Virus record (IMG/VR): IMGVR_UViG_3300022602_000249
Coordinates: 1-35,369 of that record
Length of the DNA stretch: 35,369 nucleotides
Source: a virus
Strand: one strand, 5' to 3'
Positions 1,647 through 29,302 of the stretch are shown here, piece by piece. The notes under the pieces were generated by a model that was not told the origin of the DNA, did not search any database, and was given only the letters and a program-made list of their open reading frames with translations. Position 1 is the stretch's first letter; every line of letters starts with the position of its first letter. A program made the position numbers and the translations under genes.

Positions 1647-2055
1647 GTAACACATAAAACCAAATGTTTTGATCCAGGCCTTGAGTTGTTAACACCGGAA
1701 GTATGTTAGAGTTGTTTGTGAGATCTACCAACATAGGAACACCTTCCGCATCTTCTCGCAGTACTCGGGTAGGATCGTCGGGCAATCCAAATATTCCGTC
1801 AGACTCTACTGCAAACTCAAATGTCCATACTAAATTTTCTTGTGAAGGAGCAGTTAAATCAAACAACTGCGCTCGCATACCTACAATTTGTGTAAGTGTT
1901 TCCCAATTGCGTTGTTGATTTCTAGAGTGTGTCCATTGCTGGAAGTTTTGAACTGGTTGACCAACTTGGTCATTAAACGGAAGTCGTGCGGATTTGAAAT
2001 GTCCAGTCACACCAGTGGGAGTGATATCAAAAAGTGTTTGGCAGGTGTATCTCAT
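1642..2055 (-). CDS. Hypothetical protein, 137 aa, probable structural or accessory
   Basis: The ATG at 2055 is preceded by an AT-rich segment with ATTAAATA on the minus strand at 2067-2074. The protein is beta-rich. It contains an FDITxTGVTGHFK-like start, an RNQQRNWETLTQIVGMR helix in the centre and a tail of hydrophobic strands. There is no signal peptide, membrane helix or catalytic motif. I have an impression of similar short proteins in aquatic T4-like phages, always without function. Its place next to the small membrane protein and the probable virion protein at 2130-2546 suggests late expression. Confidence 0.75.
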   Translation of the reverse strand: MRYTCQTLFDITPTGVTGHFKSARLPFNDQVGQPVQNFQQWTHSRNQQRNWETLTQIVGMRAQLFDLTAPSQENLVWTFEFAVESDGIFGLPDDPTRVLREDAEGVPMLVDLTNNSNILPVLTTQGLDQNIWFYVLP

Positions 2056-2082
2056 CTATATAGATGTATTTAATGCCAATAA

Positions 2083-2110
2083 AAAACCCCAGGTTTTATT
2101 CTGGGGTTTT
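2083..2110 (-). terminator. Rho-independent terminator after the gene at 2130-2546
   Basis: A perfect 10-base inverted repeat (AAAACCCCAG and CTGGGGTTTT, arms at 2083-2092 and 2101-2110) encloses an 8-base loop. On the minus strand the descending arm ends in a run of Ts, giving the usual stem plus T-tract. It lies 20 bases past the stop of the upstream gene and before the next start at 2055, so it should separate two transcription units. Confidence 0.8.
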
Positions 2111-2129
2111 GTTTACGCTAGTAAATTAA

Positions 2130-2546
2130 TTACTGAGTAACGAATGTTGCAGAAGCTGTCACATTGCCAGTTGAAATACCAATGTTCAACCCACCTGTTG
2201 CATTAGCAGTTTGAGCCGCAGTAACAATAGTTGTTGTATTAGCTGCACCTGTTGGATACACAGCAATATTCAAAATCTGTGGATTTGTTGGGTTAACTTG
2301 ATACATAGCAATTGTAGTTGTTTGTTGGATAGCCATCAATATGTTAGAAACATAACCATAAGCATTACCTGCACCTGCTACTCCCAAAGAACTGTTGGCA
2401 GTCAATGAGAAGAAGTCAAGTTTAGGACCTTGAAAGTTTGTTACGCTTGCGTTGGCAAGATTTGCGCTCTGAGCTACTGAACCATTCAATACATCAGTTG
2501 CAAATACTGGTTGTGCACCACCGGATACTGGGGTAATATAAGCCAT
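2130..2546 (-). CDS. Probable virion structural protein, 138 aa
   Basis: The start is well supported by AAGGAGA seven bases upstream of the ATG. The protein is rich in Ala, Thr, Asn, Gly and Val with almost no charged residues. Alternating beta-prone stretches (for example TTTIVTAAQTANATGGLNIG) resemble small head-decoration or fibre-type phage proteins. No enzyme motif is present. It has its own late-promoter-like element (GGTAAATA, minus strand, 2587-2594) and a strong terminator right after the stop, so it is probably a separately and abundantly expressed late gene. The structural role is inferred from composition and context, not from a recognised family. Confidence 0.75.
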   Translation of the reverse strand: MAYITPVSGGAQPVFATDVLNGSVAQSANLANASVTNFQGPKLDFFSLTANSSLGVAGAGNAYGYVSNILMAIQQTTTIAMYQVNPTNPQILNIAVYPTGAANTTTIVTAAQTANATGGLNIGISTGNVTASATFVTQ

Positions 2547-2586
2547 TTTAAAATCTCCTTAATAGATAGGCATGAAGCCTTACTTT

Positions 2587-2594
2587 TATTTACC
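2587..2594 (-). promoter_or_regulatory. Possible T4-late-type promoter for the 138-aa virion gene
   Basis: The minus strand reads GGTAAATA, matching the TAAATA core of the T4 late element with mismatches in the first two positions. It sits about 40 bases upstream of the ATG at 2546, leaving room for a short leader with a strong ribosome site. It fills the 69-base gap between genes, which otherwise holds nothing obvious. Confidence 0.35.
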
Positions 2595-2615
2595 TTATGA
2601 TTTAAAAAACAAGGT

Positions 2616-4469
2616 TTAGGAGATCAATTCTGGGTTATTTAAAGCGCGATTACCTGCAGAGAATCCAAATCTATTGACCAGTTTAGCACGGCCTGCTGGT
2701 GTAGCTAGTACCCAACCTTCTTGCCCAGGCTGTTGACGATCTAGTTGTTGTAGTAAATCACTCTTGAGATCATGCAATCCCAGGAACGCAGTAAATGCAG
2801 CACTGATGCCTTCCATGTTGGATCTTGGACTTTGCAGATATTCCACAATGTTGGCAAACTTTCTTGGCGTGACATGATTGCGTAACCATTCACCAAACCC
2901 TGGCAACAGATTGTCAAAATTGCTAGTAATTCTACTGTTGATATAACGCTTGCACAGAGCTGGCAAATCAGTTATACCATGTGCACGAAGATCCTGTGGA
3001 CTAAACAATTGATCAATGGCAGGACCTTTGGCTCTAACTAATTGCTTGAGTTCTTTCACTAACTTGGCATTGGGTTTGATATTTTGTATTTCTTTGACGC
3101 TGGGTTCAATCAATAACAAACCAGGCACAGGTTTAAAATTAACATCACCCAGTGGCTCTGCTGGACTCATTGGATCAGCAATCTTGGTATGTATAGCAAT
3201 GCCTACTTCGCTTTGACCAATGCGTTGTCCTAGATTACTGGCAGCTGGAATTTTGTATTCGATAAAGTTGGGCTTGAACACATATGCGCCAGCAACTTCA
3301 GGCGGAGTGTTAGTGTATAGCAAATCGCCTTGAATATAGCCACGATAGGACGCAGGCACTGCAGCACTCAACATGGGCCAAAGCTTGACATAGATAGCAA
3401 TTAGATCTCCACGCTCGCCACCACGCTGGTTCATGATCCTGGCAATCTGTTCTGGACTTGTGGCAAGACCATCGTATCCTTTGGCCAAGAAGCCTGACTT
3501 GTCAGTGAGCACAAACTCACCTGTGGGCTTGCGACCAAATATAATAGCAGGTTTGCCGTCCCATTTGACTGTGGTTGTTTTGGCAGTGTCTGCAGCAGCC
3601 GCATCAATGATAGCCAAGGCTTCGTGTATACCTTTGGAACCTTTTTCAAACACTAGATCTTCAAGATGTTCAATACGCACATCCTTGGCAGATTCTACCA
3701 AGGGACGCATGCCTTGGTTAACAATACGGTCTCTGAGTCTGGCCATAAAGTTAGTGTCTGACTCACCACGGGTTTCGAAGAAGGGCACACCTTCTCTGGC
3801 AAAATGTTCTCTGGCATCGGCCAGCTTGGCATCTCGTTTGGGATCGTTGGCCAAGGCTTGTATAATTGTTTCCACACTGTACAGATCATCTCTAGTGGCC
3901 TTGTTGTTCAACAGCAACTTAGCAACCTTGTCTGGATCATCTGTAATAACTTGATTTGTGGCTCGATCAGCAATACCAGCAATTTGATTCAACTTGTAGC
4001 CCATTGACTTGGCAATAGAGTTCATCAACACATTACGGTCAACACCTTTGTACTCACTATTAGCAGGAGCAGTCAGCACAAACTTTGACCAAGGAACATT
4101 CTTTAAAAACATAAAGTCTGTTTGTACAAATCCTTTGTTGGGGTTACCTACAATAGGAGTTTTGAAGTGTACTGCTGTGCCAGTTTTCTTTATGTACTGT
4201 TCAGGCTTGAGTCCGTGACTAGTGACCCACTGTGTTAATCGTGCAACCAATTGTTCTTTGGTAACTAGATTTGAATCAACTGCTACATCCAGATCGCCAG
4301 ATGTGGGTTTGAGTCCGGTGCTGCCTAGTGTGTTGTTTTGTAGATCAAGTCCGGGCAACATCAAATCCAACCATGCAAGTGTTGGTTTGACATCAGTTTG
4401 ATTGATGCGTTGTGTGAGGGCGCGGCCGTCGCCATCTTTGAATACATTGCCGCCTTCAAATATGTTCAT
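2616..4469 (-). CDS. Putative two-domain nucleotidyltransferase / ligase-like protein, 617 aa
   Basis: Two nucleotidyl-transfer signatures are visible. Near the N-terminus LGSTGLKPTSGDLDVAVD (residues 48-65) has the GS...DxD pattern of polymerase-beta-type nucleotidyltransferases, and a third carboxylate candidate lies in VQTDFMF (Asp118). Further on, VKWDGKPAIIFGR (301-313) matches motif I (KxDG, with Lys302 as the possible adenylated lysine) of the ATP-dependent DNA/RNA ligase and capping superfamily. GYIQGDLLY (377-385) resembles ligase motif III. The remaining third looks helical. The start overlaps the stop of the upstream gene (ATGA). Function is not established: nucleic acid repair or end modification fits the motifs, but the substrate is unknown and the ligase assignment rests on short motifs. 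Confidence 0.7.
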   Translation of the reverse strand: MNIFEGGNVFKDGDGRALTQRINQTDVKPTLAWLDLMLPGLDLQNNTLGSTGLKPTSGDLDVAVDSNLVTKEQLVARLTQWVTSHGLKPEQYIKKTGTAVHFKTPIVGNPNKGFVQTDFMFLKNVPWSKFVLTAPANSEYKGVDRNVLMNSIAKSMGYKLNQIAGIADRATNQVITDDPDKVAKLLLNNKATRDDLYSVETIIQALANDPKRDAKLADAREHFAREGVPFFETRGESDTNFMARLRDRIVNQGMRPLVESAKDVRIEHLEDLVFEKGSKGIHEALAIIDAAAADTAKTTTVKWDGKPAIIFGRKPTGEFVLTDKSGFLAKGYDGLATSPEQIARIMNQRGGERGDLIAIYVKLWPMLSAAVPASYRGYIQGDLLYTNTPPEVAGAYVFKPNFIEYKIPAASNLGQRIGQSEVGIAIHTKIADPMSPAEPLGDVNFKPVPGLLLIEPSVKEIQNIKPNAKLVKELKQLVRAKGPAIDQLFSPQDLRAHGITDLPALCKRYINSRITSNFDNLLPGFGEWLRNHVTPRKFANIVEYLQSPRSNMEGISAAFTAFLGLHDLKSDLLQQLDRQQPGQEGWVLATPAGRAKLVNRFGFSAGNRALNNPELIS

Positions 4470-5725
4470 TCTGGTCTCAATCCCATTGCTAGTAATAGTG
4501 CATCAGCTTGAACATTTCCTGTTGAATGGAAATTGGCATTGCCTCCTACACGCAATATTTGTCCTACTTGATCCAGTGCCTTGTCGGTGATTCCTGCTGC
4601 TCTAAGTTTTTGTTTTAGTTGTGCCTGTGCAGCTCCTGTTCCAGGTGCTACACCTTGTTGTTTTTTGTTTTTGTTCATCTGGCCCAGTGCTTGCATACCA
4701 GCAGTTGCTAGCATGGCATATTTTTCAACAAACTGAAGTTGTTGTGGTGTCCCACGAGTTTTTATTATGTTATTCAAAGTATCGTCTAACTGTGCTTTCA
4801 TACCAGGCAACCCTCTGACCATGTCCATGGTCAATGTTTCATAGGTAGTAGGGTCTTTGGATTTGAATTTGTTATCAGACCATTGCCTAAATGATACTGC
4901 ATAGTCTTCAGCTTTGGGTCCTATTGTTGTCATTGCCTCTGACACTGTTGTTGGCGGTTGATTCGTTAACGCTGCCTGTATTCGTTGATTGAGTATGTCT
5001 TGTTCAGCTGGAGTAGGTGCACCTGGTTGAGCTTGTGCAATCTTTGGCAATCCAGCTGGTCTTCTTGCACTAGGATTTCTTCCAGGTGTAGTCGAAGCTG
5101 GAGCAACAGTTGGTGTTGCACTATCCACTGTGATACCTTGCTTTTTTAATTCGGTTGCGATGGTGCGTAATGCACTGCTTTTGTCTGTGGTATTGCTCCA
5201 TATAGTAGGAGAATTCTTAGCCAGGTATTGTCCAATTTGTGCTGAGGTCACAGTGTTATTGTTCCGTTGAGCAAACGAAGTAATCAACGGTAGAACTTTT
5301 TCTATTGTCATGTAGTCATCTAGTCCCACAGTTGGACTAGTAGCAGTTTGTTCCTGCTTGGCCCATCCAGATGCAATAGATGCGGCCCACTGTTTAATAG
5401 CAGGATTGGTTTCAATCTGTTTGAGTTTATCTTCCCATTTGGCACTGGGTGGTTGGTACTGGGTACCAAATCCTTTTTTCTCCATGTCCTGTGCAATTTT
5501 AGCAGCTGATCCAGAATAATCGCCAGTCATTTGTTGCAAGGCCGCGGGCATTTTGGCATGCATTCGTTGGTTCCAGGCCATTGGATCTTTTACTGCAGAA
5601 CTAACCGAACTGGCAGCATTTTTAATTGCAGGCCCAACTGTGCCCAATGCGTTTTTGCCAGCAGATTTAAGAGTATCCATGAACCCTTCATTTAGTTGTG
5701 TTTGTGTTAGTTCATGTATTTGCAT
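4466..5725 (-). CDS. Hypothetical Gln/Ala/Pro-rich phage protein, 419 aa
   Basis: The protein begins MQIHELTQTQLNEGFMDTLK, followed by an Ala/Ser/Val-rich amphipathic helix (residues 20-46). It then has helical blocks separated by Thr/Pro/Ala-rich linkers (about residues 205-240) and a Gln/Gly/Ala-rich region near 360-385. There is no signal peptide, membrane span or catalytic motif. The stop overlaps the start of the nucleotidyltransferase/ligase-like gene (ATGA) and the start overlaps the small upstream gene by 14 bases, so the three are coupled. Linker-rich helical proteins like this in T4-like phages are often virion or scaffold associated. It could instead be a partner of the downstream enzyme. 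Confidence 0.7.
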   Translation of the reverse strand: MQIHELTQTQLNEGFMDTLKSAGKNALGTVGPAIKNAASSVSSAVKDPMAWNQRMHAKMPAALQQMTGDYSGSAAKIAQDMEKKGFGTQYQPPSAKWEDKLKQIETNPAIKQWAASIASGWAKQEQTATSPTVGLDDYMTIEKVLPLITSFAQRNNNTVTSAQIGQYLAKNSPTIWSNTTDKSSALRTIATELKKQGITVDSATPTVAPASTTPGRNPSARRPAGLPKIAQAQPGAPTPAEQDILNQRIQAALTNQPPTTVSEAMTTIGPKAEDYAVSFRQWSDNKFKSKDPTTYETLTMDMVRGLPGMKAQLDDTLNNIIKTRGTPQQLQFVEKYAMLATAGMQALGQMNKNKKQQGVAPGTGAAQAQLKQKLRAAGITDKALDQVGQILRVGGNANFHSTGNVQADALLLAMGLRPE

Positions 5726-6010: not shown

Positions 6011-7411
6011 TTATGTTGTTTTGAGTTGACCCAGTAGTTGTTTGAGTTTGTTGCTTTGCACATCAGCCGTTACCTTGCCAATTTCTCCTGTGTCTGAGTC
6101 TACTTTTTCACTTACTTTACTTTGTGCTTTGATACTGTCGTAGATACTGGGCTTTTTAACAAACCCCGATGATTCTTCTCCGCTTTCGCCAGCATCTGTG
6201 ATACGCATGGTTTCGATATTGTACTCTAGATCAATCTTCTGACCAACGCCAGTTGAACTTCGAGATTTCATACATTGTATTTGGTACTTGCCACGCTCTT
6301 TCATTGCCCTACTGGTAAAAATACCAAACACATTGTCAGCAGTGTTGATCTTTGAAATACCACCTGAAATATGGCTGTGATCAAATTCCACTTCTTCAAC
6401 TGCACTACGATTCAACTGTGATGCAGTTACCATTAACATGCCTAGTTCTTTGGCCAAGTTACGCAGTTCTTCACTCACATACTTGTCTTTGACAAACAAG
6501 TCATTGGGACTTACTTTGGCACTAACTGGCATCAACAAGTCCAAGTAATCAATCATTACAAAGTCCACACGCTTGCCTGTTTGTATTTGATACTCTTTCA
6601 AGTAAGCTCTGATATCATTGATGTTGCTTTGCGCCGGCAAACCTTTGACTTGATAGTCACCGGACTTCTTGGACACAAGTTTGACCTTGAGTTCAGTGGT
6701 GTCTATGTCTTTGCGAATATCCTTGGTACTCATGTTGGTCAACATAGCATCAGTACGCAAACTTGTTAGTTCTTCACTAAGTTCTAGTGTGATATAAACA
6801 CCACTTAATCCTTGTTGCAACCAGTTAAGTGCAATGTTCATCATAACCAATGATTTGCCTGAACCAGATCCACCAGCAAAGATGTTGAGTTCTCCACGAC
6901 TAAATCCGCCATACAACAATCGATCCAGTTGCGGCCATCCTGTTGATACTTGTCCGCCTGAGTTAAAATACTTTTCAATCCTGGCTTTGGGATCAGCAAA
7001 ATAGTCTGTGCCCATGTCCTTGGTCAAACTAATTTGTACTGCATCCTTGATCAGTTTTTCCACTGGATCGTAGTCACCCTTTTCCAACAAGTCCGCGGCT
7101 TTTAAAATTGCACGCTCTAGTTCTTGTCTGCGGGTAAACTGTTCAAACTCAGTCATGAACCACTCAAAGTGTCCTTCATTTAAGTCCGGAACCTGTGTGA
7201 GTTTGACTCCTGTTGCCGCTGATATTTGATCAGCAGTGGGCAATGTTTTAAAATCGTCACTGTGTTTTTTAATAAACTCTGCCGCTGGTCTTAGACTACG
7301 ATCAAAGTTTTCTGTGTTGAAAATGTTCTGTACACGCACATAACTAGATGCATCCTGCAACATCATTTCTAAAAACAAGCGTTGGATATCAAGTCCGTAT
7401 TCTTTTAACAA
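6011..7411 (-). CDS. 41: Replicative DNA helicase (T4 gp41 / DnaB family)
   Basis: The 466-residue protein is close to the usual size of T4 gp41 (about 475). The N-terminal third is a helical domain typical of DnaB-type helicases. The RecA-like motor follows: Walker A GGSGSGKS (residues 180-187), a strand ending in the probable catalytic Glu (ITLELSEE, near 210), Walker B FVMIDYLDLL (284-293) and the sensor segment TASQLN. In T4 the hexamer unwinds the lagging strand at the fork and recruits gp61 primase, whose gene lies one gene upstream. No ATG fits the start. A TTG at 7409-7411 with AAGGAA six bases upstream is the best choice, and no stop separates it from the body of the protein. Confidence 0.93.
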   Translation of the reverse strand: MLKEYGLDIQRLFLEMMLQDASSYVRVQNIFNTENFDRSLRPAAEFIKKHSDDFKTLPTADQISAATGVKLTQVPDLNEGHFEWFMTEFEQFTRRQELERAILKAADLLEKGDYDPVEKLIKDAVQISLTKDMGTDYFADPKARIEKYFNSGGQVSTGWPQLDRLLYGGFSRGELNIFAGGSGSGKSLVMMNIALNWLQQGLSGVYITLELSEELTSLRTDAMLTNMSTKDIRKDIDTTELKVKLVSKKSGDYQVKGLPAQSNINDIRAYLKEYQIQTGKRVDFVMIDYLDLLMPVSAKVSPNDLFVKDKYVSEELRNLAKELGMLMVTASQLNRSAVEEVEFDHSHISGGISKINTADNVFGIFTSRAMKERGKYQIQCMKSRSSTGVGQKIDLEYNIETMRITDAGESGEESSGFVKKPSIYDSIKAQSKVSEKVDSDTGEIGKVTADVQSNKLKQLLGQLKTT

Positions 7412-7420
7412 TGTGTTTCC

Positions 7421-8149
7421 TTATATTAAATTGCATTTTTGCAGTTGTGGTAATAGTGACTTTTCAAAGAAATGTTTATTACCAACTGGGCCGTGATGCC
7501 CGGTCCACCCAAATTGATCAAAGTCAGCTGGTTTATTAATATTCAAATTAACGCCATGATAGGTATTTTCAAATAAAATACATCTAGGATGATTTACTGC
7601 ATATGGCAGTACAAATTCACTTGGGCCCCATAGATTATCAATGTCAAGATCTTTGCTTAAATTTATAATCATGTAGTTAGCATTGTTTGAATCAAGCCAT
7701 GCAGTTAATAAGAATATATTTCTTAGTACTTGTGTTTCCAGCCATGACCGGTCAGAGTGTATGACCAATGTTTTGTCTGTGCCATAATTTTGCAATCCTA
7801 CTAGGCCATGATGAGAATTAATCCGGAAACTAGTATCACTCCAGGTAGCTGTGTCAATTTCGTGACCGAGGTATTCAGTGTCTTTAAAATCATCAAAGAC
7901 AGTGACACGCTCCAACGGCGGAATTCCAATTAAAAATAAATCACGATTCCAATTGTATTGTTGTTGCATACTTATTAAGAGGTGATTTACACTGTCGAAA
8001 CTGTTGACTTCGCGAGAACAATTAAGTATGGTAGGTATGTTACAATGTTCAGCAACTAATCCCCAAAATGAATCTTTAGGATCTACACATACTCCTGGAG
8101 TTGTGTAGCTGTCTCCAACTACCCAAAGTTTATTGTATTCTTTTGACAA
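7421..8149 (-). CDS. SGNH/GDSL hydrolase-like protein, 242 aa
   Basis: Residues 8-17 (LWVVGDSYTT) carry the GDS block I motif with Ser14 as the predicted nucleophile. A C-terminal segment (GWTGHHGPVGNKHF, about 214-227) supplies candidate catalytic His218 or His219 in a block V-like setting. The central LFLIGIPPLER may stand in for block III. SGNH enzymes are usually esterases, such as deacetylases of polysaccharides or lipases. The start is a TTG at 8147-8149, with AAGGAAG a few bases upstream and no ATG before the GDS motif. The gene overlaps the primase by 20 bases and is followed at once by the helicase. There is no signal peptide, so the protein acts in the cytoplasm or travels in the virion. 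The substrate is unknown. Confidence 0.75.
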   Translation of the reverse strand: MSKEYNKLWVVGDSYTTPGVCVDPKDSFWGLVAEHCNIPTILNCSREVNSFDSVNHLLISMQQQYNWNRDLFLIGIPPLERVTVFDDFKDTEYLGHEIDTATWSDTSFRINSHHGLVGLQNYGTDKTLVIHSDRSWLETQVLRNIFLLTAWLDSNNANYMIINLSKDLDIDNLWGPSEFVLPYAVNHPRCILFENTYHGVNLNINKPADFDQFGWTGHHGPVGNKHFFEKSLLPQLQKCNLI

Positions 8150-9098
8150 GTTGTTTCTTCCTTAGTTCTATTTTTAATCTACTGGTTTCTCTTGCTTGAA
8201 ATATAGTCAGCATAGTTGCTAACTTGCCCATTTTTACCACTGCATCATTGACATCTTTGATGCTAGTGGGCCATCGTGGCATGCTTACTGCCCACCCTAG
8301 CTCTATTGCACGATCAACCAGTTCCATACCTGCTGTGTCGCGATCAGGTATTACTGTGATTTCTTTGCCTAAATTTCTTATCAGTCTGGCCTGCGCATCA
8401 CTGACCGTGTTGTGCATCAATGCCAGTCCGCCGATGCTCAGTGCATCAAATATACCTTCCATGACCAACACATGTTGCCAGTTGGGCCGTTGTAGATCCG
8501 TGCCAAACACATAGCCGGGTTGACTGTGATTGATGTACTTGGGACCACTACCACTCAACATTCTGGCACACCAACCTACCATGGTGTTGTTGTAGGTAAA
8601 CGGGATAATCACATGCGGTCTGGTCCAGTGAACTCCGTCATTTTGCATTTGTACCATGATAGGATAATCTTCTGGTACACATCTAGATCTCACATAGTCC
8701 CAAAATTCCGTATGTTCCTGTGTGAGCAATTCCACATGCGGTGGAAGATCATCATGCTCTTCGAATCGTATGTCACTGAGTGTGTTGAGTACTTGACTAC
8801 GCTCATCCAAGATGCCTTCAATGCTTCTGTGTTTGAGACTTTCGAGATTGAGCATGTCAATGTCACGCTCAGGAACATTGAACAATCCCAATAGTTTACG
8901 AGCTTTGAACCCTACTGTACGACCCAAAATAAAGCTGGCAGTAAATTGGCAATTAAAGCAATGATAGCTCCAGCCTTTGTCACTGACTTTCAGGCCGCCT
9001 CTTTGTCGTTTGTCTGCGCAACAGGGTGCATTAAAACTTATCCACCCGCTGGGAGTTTGCTTTCGTTTAGCAGGTAGGTATTGAAGGATGTCTAGCAT
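8130..9098 (-). CDS. 61: DNA primase (T4 gp61-like, zinc finger plus Toprim)
   Basis: At 322 residues it is near the 342 of T4 gp61. The N-terminal zinc domain is seen as Cys26/Cys27 and the pair Cys47-x2-Cys50 (WSYHCFNCQF). The Toprim catalytic core follows: VLVMEGIFDAL with Glu214, then ITVIPDRDTAG with Asp252 and Asp254, the acidic residues that bind metal. It makes the RNA primers for lagging-strand synthesis and works with gp41. The ATG at 9096-9098 comes two bases after the stop of the upstream SGNH-like gene. The gene lies between two SGNH-like genes, which is unusual for a primosome operon. Confidence 0.92.
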   Translation of the reverse strand: MLDILQYLPAKRKQTPSGWISFNAPCCADKRQRGGLKVSDKGWSYHCFNCQFTASFILGRTVGFKARKLLGLFNVPERDIDMLNLESLKHRSIEGILDERSQVLNTLSDIRFEEHDDLPPHVELLTQEHTEFWDYVRSRCVPEDYPIMVQMQNDGVHWTRPHVIIPFTYNNTMVGWCARMLSGSGPKYINHSQPGYVFGTDLQRPNWQHVLVMEGIFDALSIGGLALMHNTVSDAQARLIRNLGKEITVIPDRDTAGMELVDRAIELGWAVSMPRWPTSIKDVNDAVVKMGKLATMLTIFQARETSRLKIELRKKQLVKRIQ

Positions 9099-10998: not shown

Positions 10999-11006
10999 TA
11001 TTTATG
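10999..11006 (-). promoter_or_regulatory. T4-late-type element between divergent genes
   Basis: The minus strand reads CATAAATA, one mismatch from TATAAATA, 16 bases before the ATG of the virion gene at 10983. It overlaps the plus-strand ATG at 11004-11006 of the divergent gene. The distance to the minus-strand ATG is very short for a promoter, so it could be coincidental. Confidence 0.3.
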
Positions 11007-11381
11007 GGCAATGACTTGTTTGCAAAATTAGCTGAAAAATACCCTTTTATAACACTCTGTGTTTACGCCTCTGCGGAATATGTAGGTATTGTACAAAATC
11101 AAGACGATGCAATAACTACAATTTACGACTTTGGTAGCATACAAGATATAGACCAAAAACGGTTATTTTTAGAACTAGCCAATGTTTGGTGGTGGGAAAG
11201 TAACCGTAGCATACCCATTAATATCTTTTTAAAATCCGAATGGGATCCGTTCAAAGTCTACCTAAAAACATTCAGCAACAAAGATCTTGTGGTCTTACAC
11301 GGGCCTGTATGCAGTTTGACAGAAATGGCCCGTAAAAAAAGCAAAAGAAAATCAATCACCCTGGTTCGTCGACTTGATTGA
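11004..11381 (+). CDS. Hypothetical protein, 125 aa, only plus-strand gene
   Basis: This is the one convincing gene on the plus strand. It encodes a mixed alpha/beta protein with a regular start (DLFAKLAEKYPFITLCVYASAEYVGIVQNQDD), an aromatic WWWESNRSIP segment near residues 67-77 and a basic tail (ARKKSKRKSITLVRRLD). The composition looks coding and no opposite-strand frame explains this interval. I believe close relatives occur in other aquatic T4-like phages without assigned function. The ribosome site is weak (AAGGA, about 15 bases upstream). Its last 26 bases overlap the end of the convergent DnaE-like gene. The basic tail hints at nucleic acid contact, which is speculative. Confidence 0.75.
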   Translation: MGNDLFAKLAEKYPFITLCVYASAEYVGIVQNQDDAITTIYDFGSIQDIDQKRLFLELANVWWWESNRSIPINIFLKSEWDPFKVYLKTFSNKDLVVLHGPVCSLTEMARKKSKRKSITLVRRLD

Positions 11382-11934
11382 GCAAATTCATGTGTAGCGC
11401 AACCAACGCCGCATAGCTCAGAGCATGTGCTTTTTTAAATGTATATCCTCTACTGTCATCTCCATCCCATACACTGGCAAACACATCTTTCCAAGATCGA
11501 TTTTGCAAGTGAGCTTTTCCGGGTCTAATAATACTGATAAATGCAGCCATTCTAGGAATACTATCAGGACGCATGATTTTTAGCAATTCTGTGTAGTTGC
11601 CTATGTGTGCCAGTTGGCTGGCCCAGGTAGAGTCTTGCCATAATCTTGCCCAAGGCGGTGTGGCAGTCAGCATTTCTTCATAGTGTTCTGGACTGGTAAT
11701 CAGCTGATACACCCCCATGTTCAAAAAGTCAATCTTGAAGTATCCTCTTTGTTCAGCCTGTTCGTAGTCTATGGCCGCACAACCATTAACAGGATCGTAG
11801 GGAATGTCAGTAACATACACACCCGAGTTGTGTCGTCGAGCTTGTCCATTTACTATTTGTCTTGCTGGTATGTGTTGAACAAGTTTGAGTATTTGTTCTC
11901 TGTCAGCAAAATCAATATCAATATCTGCACTCAT
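11356..11934 (-). CDS. Miniature DnaE-like (DNA polymerase III alpha) protein, 192 aa
   Basis: The ATG at 11932-11934 overlaps the upstream stop (ATGA) and is preferred to an in-frame start 15 bases earlier. The short protein carries, in the right order, segments like the signature motifs of bacterial DnaE: ADIDIDFADREQ (residues 3-14, matching the PDxDxDF catalytic aspartates), RRHNSGVYV (33-41, like the HxxGVV segment), YFKIDFLNM (65-73, matching KFDFLGL with the third catalytic Asp at 69), IIRPGKAHL (135-143, like the RPGP segment) and YTFKKAHALSYA (164-175, like FxKSHAxaY). The PHP, thumb, most of the fingers, beta-binding and OB parts are absent; DnaE is over 1000 residues. Whether it polymerises DNA, binds nucleotides or acts as a regulator is unknown. 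Confidence 0.75.
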   Translation of the reverse strand: MSADIDIDFADREQILKLVQHIPARQIVNGQARRHNSGVYVTDIPYDPVNGCAAIDYEQAEQRGYFKIDFLNMGVYQLITSPEHYEEMLTATPPWARLWQDSTWASQLAHIGNYTELLKIMRPDSIPRMAAFISIIRPGKAHLQNRSWKDVFASVWDGDDSRGYTFKKAHALSYAALVALHMNLLNQVDEPG

Positions 11935-12833: not shown

Positions 12834-13508
12834 TTACCACCCTGCTTTCTTTAAAATATCTTTGGCATATTCTTGATCCGCACTATAGTCTCGAAATTTC
12901 TTCATCCAAAAATCAGCATCAATGTAGGGCCAAATCATTGCAACTTGTTCAGTTGATAGTTCATTTAAAAACTTTTGACCGCTTTCTGAATTGTATATCA
13001 CCCAAGGACTAATGCGGCCTGTGGTAATTGCATAACACATAGCGTTTGAGTTGCCGTATCTTAAACAATCATGTGCAGGGTTACTGGTCTTTTCTTCCCA
13101 ATCCATGCCAAACTCGATTGCTCTTGCTAGTGCATCATTGATGTGTTCCACACGGAGATAGTCCAACAAGTACTCTGTGTAGATGCTGTCTCTACACCAG
13201 TGGTCAATCTTTTTGTTTTGTTTCAATACCCATTCAATGAATCTTGCAGGGTTTATAGCTCTGATGTCCACACAGTAGCGACCAAACTTCACAAAGGCCC
13301 GGTAATAAGGTGAATCAGCAAAGTCATCATAGGTTTTTAGTCGTGCAGAACCTTGTGTAAGTTCATAAAATTTTATGTATGCTTGAAATCCTAGTTGGAC
13401 TCCACGCTCGTCTTTTTCCTGTCTGCGACGACGCGGCTCGCAACTGTGTACTGCAAGACTGGATTCTTTGACAAAGTTTTTCTTACAATACTGACAGGTA
13501 TAAGTCAT
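12834..13508 (-). CDS. Zinc-finger hypothetical protein, 224 aa
   Basis: The N-terminus has a C2HC zinc-finger pattern: Cys5 and Cys8, then His21 and Cys23, within TCQYCKKNFVKESSLAVHSC. A basic stretch follows (EPRRRRQEKDER), suggesting DNA or RNA contact. The rest is helical and rich in aromatic residues, with no catalytic motif. The start overlaps the stop of the upstream gene as ATGA, and the next gene starts directly at its stop. Lying among replication and repair genes, it may be a nucleic-acid-binding accessory factor. I recall unnamed relatives in aquatic T4-like phages, but I cannot match it to a named T4 protein. Confidence 0.8.
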   Translation of the reverse strand: MTYTCQYCKKNFVKESSLAVHSCEPRRRRQEKDERGVQLGFQAYIKFYELTQGSARLKTYDDFADSPYYRAFVKFGRYCVDIRAINPARFIEWVLKQNKKIDHWCRDSIYTEYLLDYLRVEHINDALARAIEFGMDWEEKTSNPAHDCLRYGNSNAMCYAITTGRISPWVIYNSESGQKFLNELSTEQVAMIWPYIDADFWMKKFRDYSADQEYAKDILKKAGW

Positions 13509-13948
13509 TTTTCTCTTACCAATGCATGAAGATATGCATCTAATTCTTTTTTGGTTGTAATCTCAGCCAAGAGTTCTATATCGTCCATTTTCATATTAGG
13601 GAACAAGTCTGCCAGTTGTTTCTTTGAACTGCCTGCACTGGCTTCTTTTTTCTTGGGAGCAATCCACTGATGCCGGAACTTTCCCCACCCTGGACTTACC
13701 GCAGTTGCACACAACCATTGTAGTTTAGGATGTTTGTTTATGGCAAAGAAGTTTTTGTTTAAGTTTTCGTTGGTGCTCAACAGGTACACAGACTGTTCAA
13801 GAGGGTTACCTTGCACACTACTACCCCATCGAATCATAAGAAAGTTACTGAACTTTTTCTTTTCTTCATCAGTTAGGTCGTCATAGAAGTCTCTGTTCTT
13901 GGTGTCGAACTGTGCCATTTCATTGGCAATGTTTAGTTTGTCACTCAT
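13505..13948 (-). CDS. Possible clamp-loader small subunit (T4 gp62-like), 147 aa
   Basis: This helical protein has a central segment (FSNFLMIRWGSS through WLCATAVSPGWGKFRHQWI) that loosely resembles the middle of T4 gp62, where FMVENALSQFP and later RGKRYGKW occur. T4 gp62 is 187 residues and forms the sliding-clamp loader with gp44. The similarity is short and judged by eye, so the call is tentative; it could be an unrelated replication accessory protein. Neither gp44 nor the clamp gp45 is adjacent, which weakens the call. It overlaps the upstream gene by 8 bases and the zinc-finger gene by 4 (ATGA), within a tightly coupled operon. Confidence 0.6.
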   Translation of the reverse strand: MSDKLNIANEMAQFDTKNRDFYDDLTDEEKKKFSNFLMIRWGSSVQGNPLEQSVYLLSTNENLNKNFFAINKHPKLQWLCATAVSPGWGKFRHQWIAPKKKEASAGSSKKQLADLFPNMKMDDIELLAEITTKKELDAYLHALVREK

Positions 13949-15622: not shown

Positions 15623-17070
15623 TCTAGTTTTTCTTGTGTAAATGGATAGTTGGCATCCTTGTAAAAAGTCTTGCGCTTGGTCAAGTGTCTCTTCGCAAAT
15701 TTGCAAGTACTTGTGATGTCCCAGATTTGTACAAAGTCCTTGTCCTCCGCCTTCCTAATACCTCGCCCAATTGATTGTATAACCCTGACAAAGCTCTTTC
15801 CGGGCTCCACAAGAACCAAATTAAAAATACGAGGAATATTAATACCCACAGCGGCCACACCGTAAGTCGCCACAATAATCTTATCACTACTAACTGCAAC
15901 TTCGTCATACTCACTTTGTCTATCTCCTGCTTTGGTTGATCCTGATACAAATACTGCATTTTCTAACTGTGCTACCAGGGCCTGGCCTGGTGCAATACGA
16001 TCCACCAACACCAAGGTATTGCCTGTGAGATTTACTTGTCGTACAAGATTAGCAATGGTTTTGAGTCGGTCTTCTTCTTCAAGAAGATATTTTAATTCGC
16101 TTTGGTAGTTAGAAAACTCTGCGTGGTCAACTAACTGCACAATATTCACATGACATTGTGCCAGTACTCCACGATCTTGAAGTTCACTGGCGGCTAGTTG
16201 ACTTATAACTGGACCAATACTTACCAGTAACGCTTGGCTTTCAAACTTTTCTTTGGGTATGGTTCCTGTGAGTCCCCAACGAATTGGAATATGACTCATT
16301 ACTCCTGTGAGCAATGCTTTAAGTGCATCTGCTTTGGCCATGTGTACTTCGTCGACCATGATGCAAACAACATCTTCAATGAAGTCCTGTATTGTGACTT
16401 CAGCCATTGAATTTTTTGTATTTTTCAACAACACATTCAAACTCTGCCAGGTGCATATGGTATGTGTCTTACCAAACTCCTTGCGGTCTCCGAAGTACAC
16501 ACCAACATCCAGTCCTAGATTACGATAGTCTGCTTCTGTTTGTGTCACTAGACTTTTGTTGGGCACAACAACAATGCTACGACCATAGGGTTCAATGCTG
16601 TGACTCAATGCCGCAGTCATGATTGTTTTACCTGCTCCTGTAGCAACTTCTTGCATACATTGTGGGTTGGCTAAGAAATTATTAACAATCTCAACTTGAT
16701 AGTCGCGAAGCATGATAGGCTCGCCTGCTCGGGGATGTCCTTTGGGCCACACTTTATGTGCAAATGTGTTTTCAGTTACTGTTGCAAAATCAAATGTTGT
16801 GCGATAGGATCTTTGATCATCAAGCTCTATGTCGTAGTTGAACTTTTCCAATATAGGAATGATCTCTGGCAACAGGTTAACATAAGTGCTACCACCCATT
16901 TGAAAATAACTCACTTTGCCATCCCAGCGTCCTAGTCTGACCGCAGGAAGATATCTTGCATAAGGAACATCATATTTAAATGCATTGACCAATGACCGTC
17001 GTGCGTCAAGTTCTAATCCATCTATTTTGATGTTTACTTCATCTTTGATTGTGATTGTAGCGGTTCTCAT
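15613..17070 (-). CDS. uvsW: UvsW-like DNA/RNA helicase (superfamily 2)
   Basis: The 485-residue protein has the expected size (T4 UvsW about 500) and all main SF2 motifs: LRDYQVEIV (Q-like, 121-129), GAGKT Walker A (145-149), VDEVH Walker B (239-243, DEVH box), GLTGTIP motif III (267-272 region) and QSIGRGIRK motif VI near residue 433. The N-terminal 100 residues form the small nucleic-acid-binding domain typical of UvsW. UvsW unwinds R-loops and branched recombination intermediates, and in T4 it helps shift replication from origin- to recombination-dependent mode. Its first 32 bases overlap the end of the oxygenase-like gene. Confidence 0.93.
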   Translation of the reverse strand: MRTATITIKDEVNIKIDGLELDARRSLVNAFKYDVPYARYLPAVRLGRWDGKVSYFQMGGSTYVNLLPEIIPILEKFNYDIELDDQRSYRTTFDFATVTENTFAHKVWPKGHPRAGEPIMLRDYQVEIVNNFLANPQCMQEVATGAGKTIMTAALSHSIEPYGRSIVVVPNKSLVTQTEADYRNLGLDVGVYFGDRKEFGKTHTICTWQSLNVLLKNTKNSMAEVTIQDFIEDVVCIMVDEVHMAKADALKALLTGVMSHIPIRWGLTGTIPKEKFESQALLVSIGPVISQLAASELQDRGVLAQCHVNIVQLVDHAEFSNYQSELKYLLEEEDRLKTIANLVRQVNLTGNTLVLVDRIAPGQALVAQLENAVFVSGSTKAGDRQSEYDEVAVSSDKIIVATYGVAAVGINIPRIFNLVLVEPGKSFVRVIQSIGRGIRKAEDKDFVQIWDITSTCKFAKRHLTKRKTFYKDANYPFTQEKLEWK

Positions 17071-17761
17071 TAATAGTATTATACAGTTTTTTATAAGAAT
17101 TTACAACCATGTTTTGAAATTCTATGTTGTCAAAGTCTTGGTGAATGATTATATGCCAGCGATGTTCTGAGCTATCATTAAACACAGTATGTCTATTGGA
17201 TATGTCTAACCAAAATGCAGAACCAGGCTCAAACGGAACTGTGCCGTGTTTTTCCATTACAAAATTACAATCGGCTGGTTGAGTAATCGCAATATTAATT
17301 GCGGTTAACTCTGCGTGGTCAGTGTCTCGATGGATACTCACATATCCTCCGGGTTCTAACAACATAACTCTAACACGATTAAAACTCACACTAGGCCATT
17401 GCGTTGAAAAATAGTCAACAGTGTTGGGCATAAGTTTTGTTGCTTCTGGTGTCCAAATGTATGGGCGGGAATCATTGTAATAACTGTCTTCTCTAGTAGC
17501 ATCGTAGCTTTTGCCGTGTATACAAAAACTTTTCCATCCCTGGTGCTCACCATACTCTTCTCTGTGCTCTTGCAACAACGATTGAATATTTGAAATTTCT
17601 GCTAGTATTGCCTGGTACGGAATATCAATTTCTAATTTCAACCATGGCAACCCAGATTTGGTTTTAATCCAATCAAAGTCAGCCGTTGGGTTGTACTCAG
17701 GCAATTCAAATTTGTGATTGATATATCTATTGAGCATCAACTGACTTATTTTATTTTTCAT
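17039..17761 (-). CDS. Aspartyl/asparaginyl beta-hydroxylase-like 2-oxoglutarate/Fe(II) oxygenase
   Basis: The C-terminal half shows the double-stranded beta-helix metal site: VSIHRDTDH with His144 and Asp146, then ISNRHTVFNDS with His191, and Arg201 in EHRWHIIIH as a probable 2-oxoglutarate contact. The order and spacing match the Asp/Asn hydroxylase family, which hydroxylates side chains using oxygen and 2-oxoglutarate; phage homologues also act on unknown substrates. The N-terminal 100 residues are family specific. The start overlaps the upstream gene as ATGA and the 3' end overlaps uvsW by 32 bases. The neighbours offer no obvious substrate, so the target (protein, lipid or small molecule) is unknown. 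Confidence 0.82.
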   Translation of the reverse strand: MKNKISQLMLNRYINHKFELPEYNPTADFDWIKTKSGLPWLKLEIDIPYQAILAEISNIQSLLQEHREEYGEHQGWKSFCIHGKSYDATREDSYYNDSRPYIWTPEATKLMPNTVDYFSTQWPSVSFNRVRVMLLEPGGYVSIHRDTDHAELTAINIAITQPADCNFVMEKHGTVPFEPGSAFWLDISNRHTVFNDSSEHRWHIIIHQDFDNIEFQNMVVNSYKKLYNTINENRYNHNQR

Positions 17762-21987: not shown

Positions 21988-22680
21988 TCAGTGATTTTTT
22001 GCAAATCGTTGCTGGCAGTATTCAGTTAGTATTCTTTCACGGTGCCATTCTTCGGACTGCGGAGTATTTGCAAACTCTTCAAAACACGGTGTGCCCAGTG
22101 TATAATGCAACAATTTGGCGTTGAAATTAACACCGTATTCATCAGGCAGCCAATTCCACTCCAGCGGTAATGTGCCAATAGCTGCGTCATCTAGCCAGGA
22201 AAATCTATGTAAAAATGACCCAGATGATTGTTGTACAAATTCTGGTGTTAGTTGCCGGTTGTGTGGGCTATTGCAATTCCATAATATTACACTACTCCAG
22301 TTTTTTCTTGGGTAATCTTCGTTTTTTGAATCAAGATACTTGACGGGCATGCGAGTTTTGTAGTTGTGCTTTACTACCATGACATCTTTGTCGGGTTGTC
22401 TAAGATTCCATAAGTTAGCAATATCATCACGCAAGATCATGTCACCATCGATGAAAATTGCCCAACCTTGGAATCCCATTAGATGCGGCACAAGAAATCT
22501 AGTATAGATAAACTGATTACTACCGTCAGTGTGAGTTTCTTTGTAGTCTTGAAATAGATTCAAAGACATAGGAGTAATTGCAACTGGCTGGTTAGCGTGC
22601 CGTATAATGCTGTTTACACATGTATGATATGCAATTGCTTCTCTTGGATCATACCCGATAAAAATCGGAATTGAGTTCAT
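21988..22680 (-). CDS. GT8-like glycosyltransferase, 230 aa
   Basis: The N-terminus IPIFIGYDPREAIAYHTCVNSI is typical of family 8-type and related GT-A glycosyltransferases. WAIFIDGDMIL (73-83) supplies the DxD metal and sugar-nucleotide site (Asp78, Asp80). SVILWNC near residue 130 and a WLDDAAIG segment near 162 are also in keeping with the fold. It transfers a sugar from a nucleotide donor to an unknown acceptor in the cytoplasm. Its start overlaps the stop of the sugar-nucleotide/cupin fusion gene (ATGA), suggesting the two act in one pathway, for example modification of the phage surface, phage DNA or host envelope. Confidence 0.85.
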   Translation of the reverse strand: MNSIPIFIGYDPREAIAYHTCVNSIIRHANQPVAITPMSLNLFQDYKETHTDGSNQFIYTRFLVPHLMGFQGWAIFIDGDMILRDDIANLWNLRQPDKDVMVVKHNYKTRMPVKYLDSKNEDYPRKNWSSVILWNCNSPHNRQLTPEFVQQSSGSFLHRFSWLDDAAIGTLPLEWNWLPDEYGVNFNAKLLHYTLGTPCFEEFANTPQSEEWHRERILTEYCQQRFAKNH

Positions 22681-23441
22681 AGTCGTTCTATGTCTTCTTC
22701 AACACAATTTTTGCCGTATTGTATTTCCACAACTTTGAGTGGCTGATCAGTTTCATTACAAAGCTGATGCCACTCTTCTCTATTGATGTGTATGTATTGG
22801 TGCTGAGCAAATTCGCCCAGAAGTTCTGCATCTGAACTTCGATTTATAGTATAAACTGTCGCAGTTCCTTCTGCAACAAACCAATGTTCAGCACGATCTT
22901 GATGTCGTTGCATACTAAGCATCTTGCCAGGTTCAACTGTTAGTTCTTTGACTTTGACTTCTTGTCCTAGTTCGTGCAGCACACGATAGTATCCCCAGGC
23001 TCTGGGAGTTTTAGGCTTCTTCCAATTTTCTAATATCCAACTGCTGGAGTTCTTTTTATCTTTGCCGCCAACGCCAAATACAAAACTTAGCCTTGGATCT
23101 TGTATTTTCATTTCTGGAATGTTATCAGCGTTGCGGTCGCCACCATTGGCAAATATGATTTCAGAATCTGAAAATAATTCTAAGGTTTCTTTGATAAATG
23201 TAGAACAACTGCCATCTGGGTCATCTGCAACCATTACTGTTTGATCTACCATTTTTAATGAACGAACAATGGTATCTCTTTCCCATATTGGCATAAAAGA
23301 TTGACCTTTTTTACGAACTAGCCAGTCATCGCTATTAAGACCAACTACTAACCAGTCTCCTAATTTTTTAGCGGCTTTAAAGTATTCTATATGACCGCTA
23401 TGTAGCGGATCAAACCCACCAGTTACTATTACAATTTTCAT
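22677..23441 (-). CDS. Cytidylyltransferase-like / mannose-6-phosphate-isomerase-type cupin fusion, 254 aa
   Basis: Residues 1-140 form an HIGH-type nucleotidyltransferase domain: VTGGFDPLHSGHIEY (6-20) holds the GGFDxLHxGH signature of TagD, RfaE and related enzymes that join a sugar or polyol phosphate to CTP or ATP. Residues 148-254 match the C-terminal cupin of type II phosphomannose isomerases (AlgA/ManC): WGYYRVLHE, then PGKMLSMQRHQDRAEHWFVA with the RAEHW signature, and EIQYGKNCVEEDIERL at the end. This pairing is unusual, since the cupin is normally joined to a mannose-1-phosphate guanylyltransferase. It probably activates a sugar for the coupled glycosyltransferase downstream. The exact sugar is not evident. 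Confidence 0.88.
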   Translation of the reverse strand: MKIVIVTGGFDPLHSGHIEYFKAAKKLGDWLVVGLNSDDWLVRKKGQSFMPIWERDTIVRSLKMVDQTVMVADDPDGSCSTFIKETLELFSDSEIIFANGGDRNADNIPEMKIQDPRLSFVFGVGGKDKKNSSSWILENWKKPKTPRAWGYYRVLHELGQEVKVKELTVEPGKMLSMQRHQDRAEHWFVAEGTATVYTINRSSDAELLGEFAQHQYIHINREEWHQLCNETDQPLKVVEIQYGKNCVEEDIERL

Positions 23442-25997: not shown

Positions 25998-27152
25998 TTA
26001 TTGTCCTTTGTTAAGTTTGTATAAGTTTTTAAATATTTTACTACTATCTAGTCCTCGGCGTTGATCCATAATTGCCAACTGTGCAAAAGAATTTGGTAAA
26101 TCTTTTTCAATTGGTTGTGTTATGTAGCTCAACATGTTTCGATAACTATCTTCAAGTAGGTATCCTGGTTTTTGATTGATTTTGTCTGATAATGTTACTT
26201 TGAGTAAGTTTAACACATCGTCAGGCAAATGTCTAATGTTTAGGTAATCTGGAGATAATAATGCACCAATCACAAAACTATTGTTATGGAATCCCAGACT
26301 CTTCAAGTAATCCACACAGTCAAATACACTTTGATAATTCAACAAGAAGTGCAACATGTTGAAAGATATCTTGTGATCAAGTGTTCTAACTCTGTTTAAA
26401 TTGTCTAAAAAGTCTGTCCACTTCCCGCCATATCGTATATATTCAAATTCGTCTTCTATTGTTTCTACACTGATTGTCCAGTGTACATTTTTGAATTCGC
26501 AGATACGATCAAATATCTGAGTGTCTACTTTGCTAAGGTTTGTGTTGATTCTAAGATTAACTCCAGGATTCTTTTGTTGTAGAATTTCCAATAGTTCTAA
26601 ATTTTCTTTCATCAACAACGGCTCACCACCGGCCATGTACACATGTTTTAGTTGGTGTGCATGATCAAAGATGTATTGTTTAAAATTGTCAAGTTGAGTA
26701 GTGTCAGGTTTGGCATGGTATATTTTGAGTTCATCTGCCCATTTGCTGCTGAATGTTGGTCCGCAATAAACACACCCAAAGTTACACAAGTTACTCCAAC
26801 GCACATCTATGGTCTGCAGATCGTGTTGACCTTGAGTGTATGTGTCTAACGGAACATGTTTGAGTTCTCTAATGTAAAAGATCCTGTCGCTGATTATTTC
26901 AAATCCCTTTTTATCAGCTTCGAGATCGTAGCATGTGTAACAGGATCGTCCGGGTTGATTGGACAACATTCTCTGTTGTGTGTCTGCGTTGACCGGACCT
27001 GTGAGAATTTCTTCTATAGAATTATGTTTGATGTTGCCAATTGTGCCGGCACTGCGAATACAATTTTTCACTGTACCATCAAAGTTATACATAAGTCCAG
27101 TCCAAGGCACAGGACAGAAATTACGATTTGTCAGCACATCTTTGGGTGTCAT
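25998..27152 (-). CDS. Radical SAM protein with additional N-terminal Cys cluster, 384 aa
   Basis: The radical SAM cluster motif is SNLCNFGCVYC (Cys123, Cys127, Cys130), spaced CX3CX2C, followed by a strand with AGGEPLL that binds SAM. An N-terminal SPASM/twitch-like set of cysteines (Cys13, Cys31, Cys71, Cys74, in CPVPW and CYTCY) could hold a second iron-sulfur cluster. Such enzymes often modify peptides, for example in making RiPP natural products, but no precursor peptide is recognised here. The gene overlaps the SDR gene (ATGA) and ends just before uvsX. It shares the segment TNLS...FEYIRYGGKW with the truncated radical SAM gene at the right end. Confidence 0.88.
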   Translation of the reverse strand: MTPKDVLTNRNFCPVPWTGLMYNFDGTVKNCIRSAGTIGNIKHNSIEEILTGPVNADTQQRMLSNQPGRSCYTCYDLEADKKGFEIISDRIFYIRELKHVPLDTYTQGQHDLQTIDVRWSNLCNFGCVYCGPTFSSKWADELKIYHAKPDTTQLDNFKQYIFDHAHQLKHVYMAGGEPLLMKENLELLEILQQKNPGVNLRINTNLSKVDTQIFDRICEFKNVHWTISVETIEDEFEYIRYGGKWTDFLDNLNRVRTLDHKISFNMLHFLLNYQSVFDCVDYLKSLGFHNNSFVIGALLSPDYLNIRHLPDDVLNLLKVTLSDKINQKPGYLLEDSYRNMLSYITQPIEKDLPNSFAQLAIMDQRRGLDSSKIFKNLYKLNKGQ

Positions 27153-27682
27153 GCTGGCCCTAAACTGATGTCTGGCACAGTCAAGTTGTTGGCACCTGCT
27201 ATACGAAAAATGTTGACCAGAGCTCTAGCCCATGTGTTTACTTCAGCAGCTGGCGGCACTGTTTTGTCTGCGCTGGTAGCAATGTTTCCCGGGCGCACTA
27301 TGGTAAACTTGATGCCAAGTCTACGATATCTAAGTTGATGCACTGCTTCTTCAAGTGCAACCTTTTGCACACGGTATGCATCCATGTCAAGACCTGGCAA
27401 GCAACTCATTGGATCTTGTGCCATGATTGTACTGATCACTATGATGTGTTTGTTGGTACCAGGCCAACGACGGGCCATTTCAAACAACAATTCAGTCTGT
27501 GCAAATCCTGCTTGTGCATTGTTGATAAACATATCACACGGTTCAATTTGATCGCAGATCTTGGGAATGTTGCGTATGTTGTTGCCATCACGCCGACTAA
27601 GGCCGATTATTTCATGCCCTTCGTAGGCGTCTGCTAATGCTCTACCAATGCCAGCAGTGTGTCCAGTGATTGCTATTTTCAT
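27149..27682 (-). CDS. Short-chain dehydrogenase/reductase, 177 aa
   Basis: The N-terminus has the nucleotide-binding TGHTAGIG (6-13). NNA is at 54-56, the catalytic Ser is probably Ser84 (VISTIM), and the YxxxK pair is Tyr103 and Lys107 (AYRVQK). At 177 residues it is shorter than the usual 250, having lost part of the C-terminal substrate region, so substrate range may be altered. SDRs use NAD(P)H to reduce or oxidise alcohols and ketones, including sugar nucleotides. ATGA overlaps link it to radical SAM genes on both sides. Confidence 0.88.
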   Translation of the reverse strand: MKIAITGHTAGIGRALADAYEGHEIIGLSRRDGNNIRNIPKICDQIEPCDMFINNAQAGFAQTELLFEMARRWPGTNKHIIVISTIMAQDPMSCLPGLDMDAYRVQKVALEEAVHQLRYRRLGIKFTIVRPGNIATSADKTVPPAAEVNTWARALVNIFRIAGANNLTVPDISLGPA

Positions 27683-28653: not shown

Positions 28654-29302
28654 AAATGGGCTCAATTATTCTTTGACTACGATTAATTACCCAATTGTAA
28701 GCATCTGAATCTTTGTTGCGTAGTAGATCAAGCAACTGAGCAAAAGTAAAATCTTGCCCTATGCAGTGATTTACAATAACTTGATCAAGTCTTTGATACA
28801 TTTCGCAATGTTTCAATATAGATAATCGATTAAACAATTCGTAATCAATGGGTTTAACATCAAATGGTGGTTTATGTAAACTTGTGATAGAACCTACATC
28901 GTCCATTGAAAGAAAATGCATGGTAGTTGTCGGCGACATGTATCTAGCCAAATTCACAATCCACATAAACTGGGTTGCATAGTGTCTATTCAAATACAAA
29001 TAGTTTTCAGCAAACCAGATTACTGTTTCTCTGTCTAATTCAGGATTATCTCTAATAGTGAATTGAACAAATGTATTAATTCCAGAAATCAGTCTTTCCG
29101 TTGGGTCTCTTAGTACAATATCAATGCGATCAAGTTTGCGAATTTGTTCATTGATTTTTATTTTCCAATTTGATTTTGTTGCTTCTCGTTGTATGCTACT
29201 AGAGGCATTTTTAAAAATTGGATAGAAATACCGCTGTGACGGTATAATTTCTATAACTTCACAGCGGTCTGGAAAGATAATGCAATCTAAATTAGATAAC
29301 AT
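28634..29302 (-). CDS. Sulfotransferase-family protein, 222 aa
   Basis: YFYPIFKNASSSIQ (25-38) matches the 5'-phosphosulfate-binding loop of carbohydrate-type sulfotransferases (PxxKxASSS). IDIVLRDPTERLISGI (60-75) matches the 3'-phosphate-binding segment RDPxxRxxS. These enzymes move sulfate from PAPS to hydroxyls of sugars or other acceptors. It starts a few bases after the gp32 stop and overlaps the radical SAM gene, so it heads a coupled set of four accessory genes. A kinase of similar fold is possible but less likely. Confidence 0.8.
   Translation of the reverse strand: MLSNLDCIIFPDRCEVIEIIPSQRYFYPIFKNASSSIQREATKSNWKIKINEQIRKLDRIDIVLRDPTERLISGINTFVQFTIRDNPELDRETVIWFAENYLYLNRHYATQFMWIVNLARYMSPTTTMHFLSMDDVGSITSLHKPPFDVKPIDYELFNRLSILKHCEMYQRLDQVIVNHCIGQDFTFAQLLDLLRNKDSDAYNWVINRSQRIIEPIYALSKT

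Follow-up and report, generated by a model that had tools for sequence, protein, structure and literature searches.

A 192-residue protein encoded in the 35,369-nucleotide stretch of viral DNA analyzed here (hereafter the window) is probably the C-terminal subunit of a minimal, two-gene nucleotidyltransferase of the C family found in T4-like jumbo phages, in which the pair would act as an accessory polymerase before the family B polymerase takes over. We refer to this protein as the C-half and to its partner, which is encoded elsewhere in related genomes, as the N-half. The C-half is homologous to the palm and fingers of bacterial DNA polymerase III alpha (Pol III alpha), is predicted with high confidence to share their fold, and retains the catalytic residues without exception among its relatives.

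The C-half gene and its active-site motifs

The C-half gene (Table 1) begins with an ATG at position 11934 on the minus strand and ends with the stop codon at 11356-11358. A second ATG at 11949 would give a protein of 197 residues; we favour the 192-residue start as its ATG shares the sequence ATGA with the stop codon of the upstream gene. The open reading frame named in the original prediction is a real one, although its strand had been left unstated, and the five DnaE motifs that were read in it are all present in the native order and are conserved in 170 homologues. Alignment anchored on these motifs equates D4, D6, D69, and H170 of the C-half with D401, D403, D555, and H760 of Escherichia coli DnaE. 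In the E. coli enzyme D401, D403, and D555 are active-site residues, and H760 is a proposed steric gate, described as invariant across all pol III alpha (PMC8485763). The catalytic set was originally given as Asp6, Asp8, and Asp69, of which D6 and D69 hold, while D8 must be replaced by D4 according to the alignment; D8, which is also invariant, corresponds to E. coli D405. Following the DxDxD motif, D11 and R12 (the latter 98% conserved) align with the D-R pair of mycobacterial DnaE1, which is located next to the template backbone (PMC12641269). The lysine K140, next to the RPG motif at the start of the fingers, is an invariant residue specific to the C-half family.

Table 1. Coordinates in the window of the C-half gene, its motifs, and its conserved neighbours
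Feature	Position	Strand	Remarks
C-half gene	11356..11934	minus	C-terminal metal/template-binding half of split minimal Pol III alpha; 192 aa; phrog_11778
D4-I-D6-I-D8	11911..11925	minus	palm strand; D4 and D6 = E. coli DnaE catalytic D401 and D403, by alignment
H35-N-S-G38-V	11818..11832	minus	= E. coli H511-A-G-G-V; palm re-entry after the thumb (thumb absent in the C-half)
K67-I-D69-F-L	11722..11736	minus	= E. coli K553-F-D555-F-L; D69 = third catalytic aspartate
I136-R-P-G-K140	11515..11529	minus	= E. coli F638-R-P-G-P; start of the fingers
F166-K-K-A-H170	11425..11439	minus	= E. coli F756-N-K-S-H760
phrog_11637 gene	11004..11381	plus	convergent; 125 aa; function not assigned; 26-base overlap with the 3' end of the C-half gene
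phrog_11058 gene	12834..13508	minus	conserved upstream neighbour
phrog_11758 gene	13505..13948	minus	conserved upstream neighbour
gp61-type DNA primase	8130..9098	minus	conserved downstream neighbour
gp41-type (DnaB-like) replicative helicase	6011..7411	minus	conserved downstream neighbour

Homology and predicted fold of the C-half

A Pfam scan with the single C-half sequence from the window gave no match even at E = 1, and a PDB search with the same sequence returned chance matches only, so that family profiles were needed. Pfam PF17657 (Pol III fingers) matched 8 of 14 C-halves, with a best E of 6e-5, and a PDB search with the C-half family profile yielded eight matches, seven of which were Pol III alpha (best E = 0.004). 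The alignment behind these PDB matches passes in order through 'MPDIDIDFDDR', a K-x-D block, an RPG block, and 'FNKSHAAGY'. Comparison with a gammaproteobacterial DnaE profile using hhalign was limited to one local block (residues 113-139 against 615-641, E = 1.5e-4) because large deletions interrupt the alignment. The profile search that had been proposed as a check thus places the C-half with Pol III alpha.

The structural check that had been proposed alongside it gave the same answer. An AF2 model of the C-half built from 71 sequences (pLDDT 94.0, pTM 0.81) has a palm and finger fold and superposes, for almost its full length, on DnaE and PolC only. Using VIA-align 2, the top 14 chains were all DnaE or PolC (Z 6.4-10.1 over 183-191 of the 192 residues, rmsd 3.2-3.8 Å), the highest Z of 10.1 extending over 189 residues, and the next unrelated entry had a Z of 3.5. 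Glyoxalase/FosA-like matches to the model, with Z up to 3.5, were set aside as a chance resemblance between beta-sheets. In Foldseek the best 14 matches were the same DnaE/PolC set with weak E values of 0.003-0.15, and every match with a probability above 0.1 was DnaE or PolC.

The model covers residues 398-779 of 4jom (E. coli DnaE, 1160 residues), to which the C-half is approximately 20% identical. Judged from the spacing of the anchors, 26 residues occupy the position of the thumb, compared with 105 in E. coli. The distal fingers are reduced to 25 residues versus 113, and the LRRAMGKKK segment (E. coli 708-716) is absent. The part of DnaE that precedes the DxD strand, with the GRGS loop (E. 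coli 361-364), is missing in its entirety, and with 192 residues and a match confined to E. coli 398-780 the chain has no PHP, OB, clamp-binding, or tau-binding domain. The clamp- and tau-binding regions lie in the C-terminal part of DnaE. Loss of the thumb and of most of the distal part of the fingers may have altered or abolished polymerase activity.

Relatives of the C-half and conservation of the catalytic residues

The C-half matches phrog_11778, annotated 'DNA polymerase', with E = 1.2e-52, and gives a weak match to the DnaE-type phrog_405 (E = 2.8e-4). Relatives are encoded in 63 phage records, mostly of jumbo myophages, when tblastn matches over at least 80% of the protein are counted. 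Carriers include Sinorhizobium phage Phosso, PA5oct and its kin, Atu_ph07, 121Q/PBECO4, RaK2, CBB, GAP32, SCTP-2, and XacN1, as well as the 141-kb phage Slicko01, and at least 583 stretches in IMG/VR encode relatives. The names under which these proteins are deposited run from 'DnaE-like DNA polymerase III alpha' (Phosso) through 'putative membrane protein'. The window protein has the features of this family, being a stand-alone protein of approximately 190-200 residues that matches phrog_11778 and carries the DxDxD, HxxG, K-x-D, RPxK, and K-x-x-H motifs.

All 170 aligned C-halves are identical at D4, D6, D8, H35, G38, P45, K67, D69, L71, W95, P123, I136, R137, P138, K140, and H170. Identity to the window protein falls to about 35-40% in some of these homologues, and distant C-halves from named phages, which are approximately 35-53% identical to the PA5oct protein, keep the same invariant set. 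The order of the motifs is beyond chance and the catalytic residues are under strong selection. The original prediction had taken the retention of the catalytic residues as an argument against simple decay, and the identity of D4, D6, and D69 in 170 of 170 homologues bears this out. An identity to DnaE of only some 20% might have pointed to a decaying remnant of a captured host dnaE, or to a chance order of motifs, but hundreds of intact homologues, the invariant active site, the conserved neighbourhood, and the confident DnaE-like fold make this explanation exceedingly improbable, and conservation across the 170 homologues refutes it for practical purposes.

In relatives a second gene encodes the GRGS half of the palm

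A search with PF07733 yields a short open reading frame of approximately 170-180 residues in each of the nine named genomes as well as in three large contigs from IMG/VR. These N-halves, 12 of 12 of which match PF07733, also belong to phrog_11127. The nucleotide-binding motif GRGS is invariant among them, and they end at the equivalent of E. coli ERFLN393. A comparison of the N-half with DnaE in hhalign gave E = 1.8e-8, and every match of the N-half profile in the PDB was Pol III alpha, the alignment running over E. coli residues 319-392 (E = 6e-7). In the AF2 model of the N-half (pLDDT 83.6) only DnaE and PolC were found above Z 3 (Z 7.4-12.0), with residues 279-393 of 4jom covered at Z 10.9; N-half residues 1 to approximately 72 fall outside the structural and profile matches. 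In the N-half an invariant glutamate takes the place of E. coli R390. The models of the two halves are separate single-chain predictions, and they cover complementary parts of the same 4jom structure, the N-half ending at E. coli 393 and the C-half starting at 398, with a gap of 4-5 residues between them.

The two halves are inherited together. Of the 60 phage records listed with a C-half, 59 also carry an N-half (58 in the N-half list, plus Slicko01 by HMM), the exception being the 109-kb record PP728206. Both halves are present in 9/9 named genomes examined and in 10/10 IMG/VR contigs with a length of at least about 300 kb. The N-half gene lies 10-220 kb from the C-half gene in relatives, and at such distances evidence from a shared operon for assembly of the two chains is absent. 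As stated in the original prediction, the polymerase of T4-like phages belongs to the unrelated family B, and relatives have both enzymes: a T4-type family B polymerase was found in 12 of 14 related records, the remaining two being fragments of 133 kb and 64 kb. Within the window we found no family B polymerase and no significant match to the N-half (best E = 0.02), as expected for a 35-kb fragment. Downstream of N-half genes (L094-L105) there is often a small gene encoding a conserved 'NARGD' segment, and after it one for a small beta-rich protein that by eye resembles a GroES/gp31 co-chaperonin.

The existence of the N-half bears on two ideas contained in the original prediction. The C-half had been proposed to be a minimal polymerase-derived enzyme. 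Its derivation from a polymerase stands, as it consists of a palm and a finger remnant, but a stand-alone minimal polymerase is rejected since the palm half with the GRGS loop is encoded by another gene. The second idea was a decoy of host replication. A decoy or inhibitor of host Pol III would be in keeping with the small size of the C-half, its resemblance to the host catalytic core, and the finding that mutant forms of DnaE can exert a dominant-negative effect in cells (PMC12641269). We nevertheless judge it very improbable, as the match stops at residue 780 of 1160 in E. coli, so that the clamp- and tau-binding part is absent, as a decoy would need neither the invariant aspartate triad nor the steric-gate histidine nor a GRGS partner, and as strict co-inheritance with the N-half argues for a paired enzyme.

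The C-half gene lies in a core replication neighbourhood

The locus of the C-half is a core replication neighbourhood, the window also encoding proteins of the UvsW, UvsX, gp32, gp41, and gp61 types. Counting only loci with enough flanking sequence, the phrog_11637 gene is antisense to the C-half gene in 153 of 159 (72/73 close relatives, 74/77 distant relatives, and 7/9 named genomes); convergent overlap of this kind is unusual, and it is strongly conserved. Upstream, phrog_11058 is present in 64/64 close, 72/76 distant, and 7/9 named loci, and phrog_11758 in 64/64, 57/76, and 4/9, respectively. By eye the latter loosely resembles a clamp-loader small subunit of the T4 gp62 type, without profile support. 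Downstream of phrog_11637 in close relatives follow a structural-type protein, gp61, and gp41, each in 44 of 44 loci.

This fixed place beside the primase and helicase genes, together with the presence of a phage family B polymerase, would also suit a non-catalytic structural or regulatory subunit of the replisome in which the palm fold was kept as a binding module. Binding modules usually lose their catalytic aspartates, however, and those of the C-half are identical in 170/170 homologues, down to approximately 35% identity, which makes a non-catalytic role distinctly improbable.

Several other genes in the window were noted. An aspartyl/asparaginyl beta-hydroxylase-like protein (PF05118, E = 8.5e-12) is encoded at 17039-17761 (minus strand), inside the phage replication region. 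At 22677-23441 (minus) a cytidylyltransferase-like domain (PF01467) is fused to a mannose-6-phosphate-isomerase-type cupin (PF01050), a possible sugar-nucleotide gene that adjoins a family 8 glycosyltransferase at 21988-22680. The gene at 25998-27152 (minus) encodes a radical SAM/SPASM protein (PF04055, PF13186), and two genes on, at 27679-28665 (minus), lies a second radical-SAM-like protein that falls below the Pfam cut-off.

A model for the two-chain enzyme

We propose that D4, D6, and D69 of the C-half would bind two catalytic metals, that the shrunken finger remnant (R137, K140, K167, and H170) would meet the incoming dNTP and the template, and that the N-half, a protein of approximately 170 residues, would contribute the GRGS loop and the palm half that the C-half lacks, the two chains together rebuilding one active site. 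Such rebuilding appears feasible because the split falls in a short loop just before the catalytic DxD strand. Catalysis by the putative reassembled pair is likely, and as the thumb and distal fingers are missing, the enzyme may be slow, distributive, or dependent on a partner, or its reaction may have changed. Lacking the thumb and the PHP, OB, and clamp-binding domains, it would probably be a distributive accessory polymerase, for instance one that extends primers or fills gaps beside the primase and helicase and then hands over to the phage family B polymerase. Primer extension is suggested by the gene neighbourhood and by analogy with Bacillus subtilis DnaE, which extends primers briefly before PolC takes over (PMC5627055).

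The same two chains might instead assemble, with the same metal site, into a related nucleotidyltransferase (e.g. one that adds to 3' ends) or a sensor of dNTPs or primer ends. With the thumb and the LRRAMGKK segment, most elements that grip DNA and part of those that grip the dNTP are gone, and the metal site, GRGS loop, and steric-gate histidine are still invariant, both of which are compatible with such a function. The histidine and the D11-R12 pair, the counterpart of which lies on the template side in mycobacterial DnaE1 (PMC12641269), suggest chemistry on a template-paired dNTP, and we regard a non-polymerase function as unlikely. Whichever the reaction, a C-family active site divided between a GRGS half and a DxD half, with invariant catalytic residues, calls for a function, and the divided enzyme, which we prefer to read as an accessory polymerase, has persisted throughout a group of giant phages, both large and diverse, whose genomes already encode a family B polymerase. 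Clear tests in laboratory-grown phages, 121Q, RaK2, and PA5oct among them, can build on where the split falls, on the loss of the thumb, and on the steric-gate histidine.

Comparison with known systems

Iyer et al. 2021 (Viruses 13:63; PMC7824862) described a minimal Pol III alpha in split form from group 2.2 jumbo phages, and the C-half of the window is a new member of this published family and not a new kind of protein. As in that system, it is the C-terminal Mg/template-binding protein, relatives encode the NTP-binding N-terminal protein at a distant locus, and a T4-type family B polymerase coexists with the pair in relatives. It differs in coming from an uncultivated phage, with no partner gene or polB in the 35-kb fragment. 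New here are the split point (E. coli 393/398), the corrected catalytic aspartates, the loss of the thumb and of the distal fingers, the steric-gate histidine, and the conservation of the neighbourhood. We found no experiments on the family in the open-access literature, subscription papers and preprints being outside the scope of the search. A survey of marine jumbo phages identified PF07733 as the only gene that is unique to cluster PGC_A and occurs in half or more of the phages there (51.9%; PMC9123017), and this gene could well correspond to the N-half. An ancestral, pre-cellular origin was also put forward by Iyer et al. 2021 (PMC7824862); that the two-chain, thumb-less core is a relic of such a form of family C, still working as a two-subunit primer-extending polymerase beside the family B replicase, seems to us quite unlikely.

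With bacterial DnaE (E. coli, Thermus, and Mycobacterium tuberculosis) and PolC the C-half shares the palm residues equivalent to D401, D403, D555, and K553, the proximal fingers (RPG), and the O-helix (H760), in the same order and the same predicted fold. In contrast to them, its chain contains neither the first half of the palm nor the domains and segments listed above. T4 gp43, the replication polymerase of the same phages, is a family B enzyme with an unrelated fold, encoded by a separate gene in the same genomes.

Single-chain C-family polymerases that lack a PHP domain were also found in two related phage contigs, at 1750-3423 (minus strand, 557 residues) of L347 and at 2927-4582 (plus strand, 551 residues) of L348, the latter gene directly following a gp41-type helicase. 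Both contain PF07733 and PF17657 and match phrog_405 strongly (E = 9e-60 and 7e-68, respectively), and the 337-kb contig of L347 carries both split halves as well. Like the split pair, these proteins have the C-family core with PF07733 and PF17657 and no PHP domain, whereas they consist of one chain of approximately 550 residues that retains a larger segment at the thumb position and a WRRAFAKK segment.
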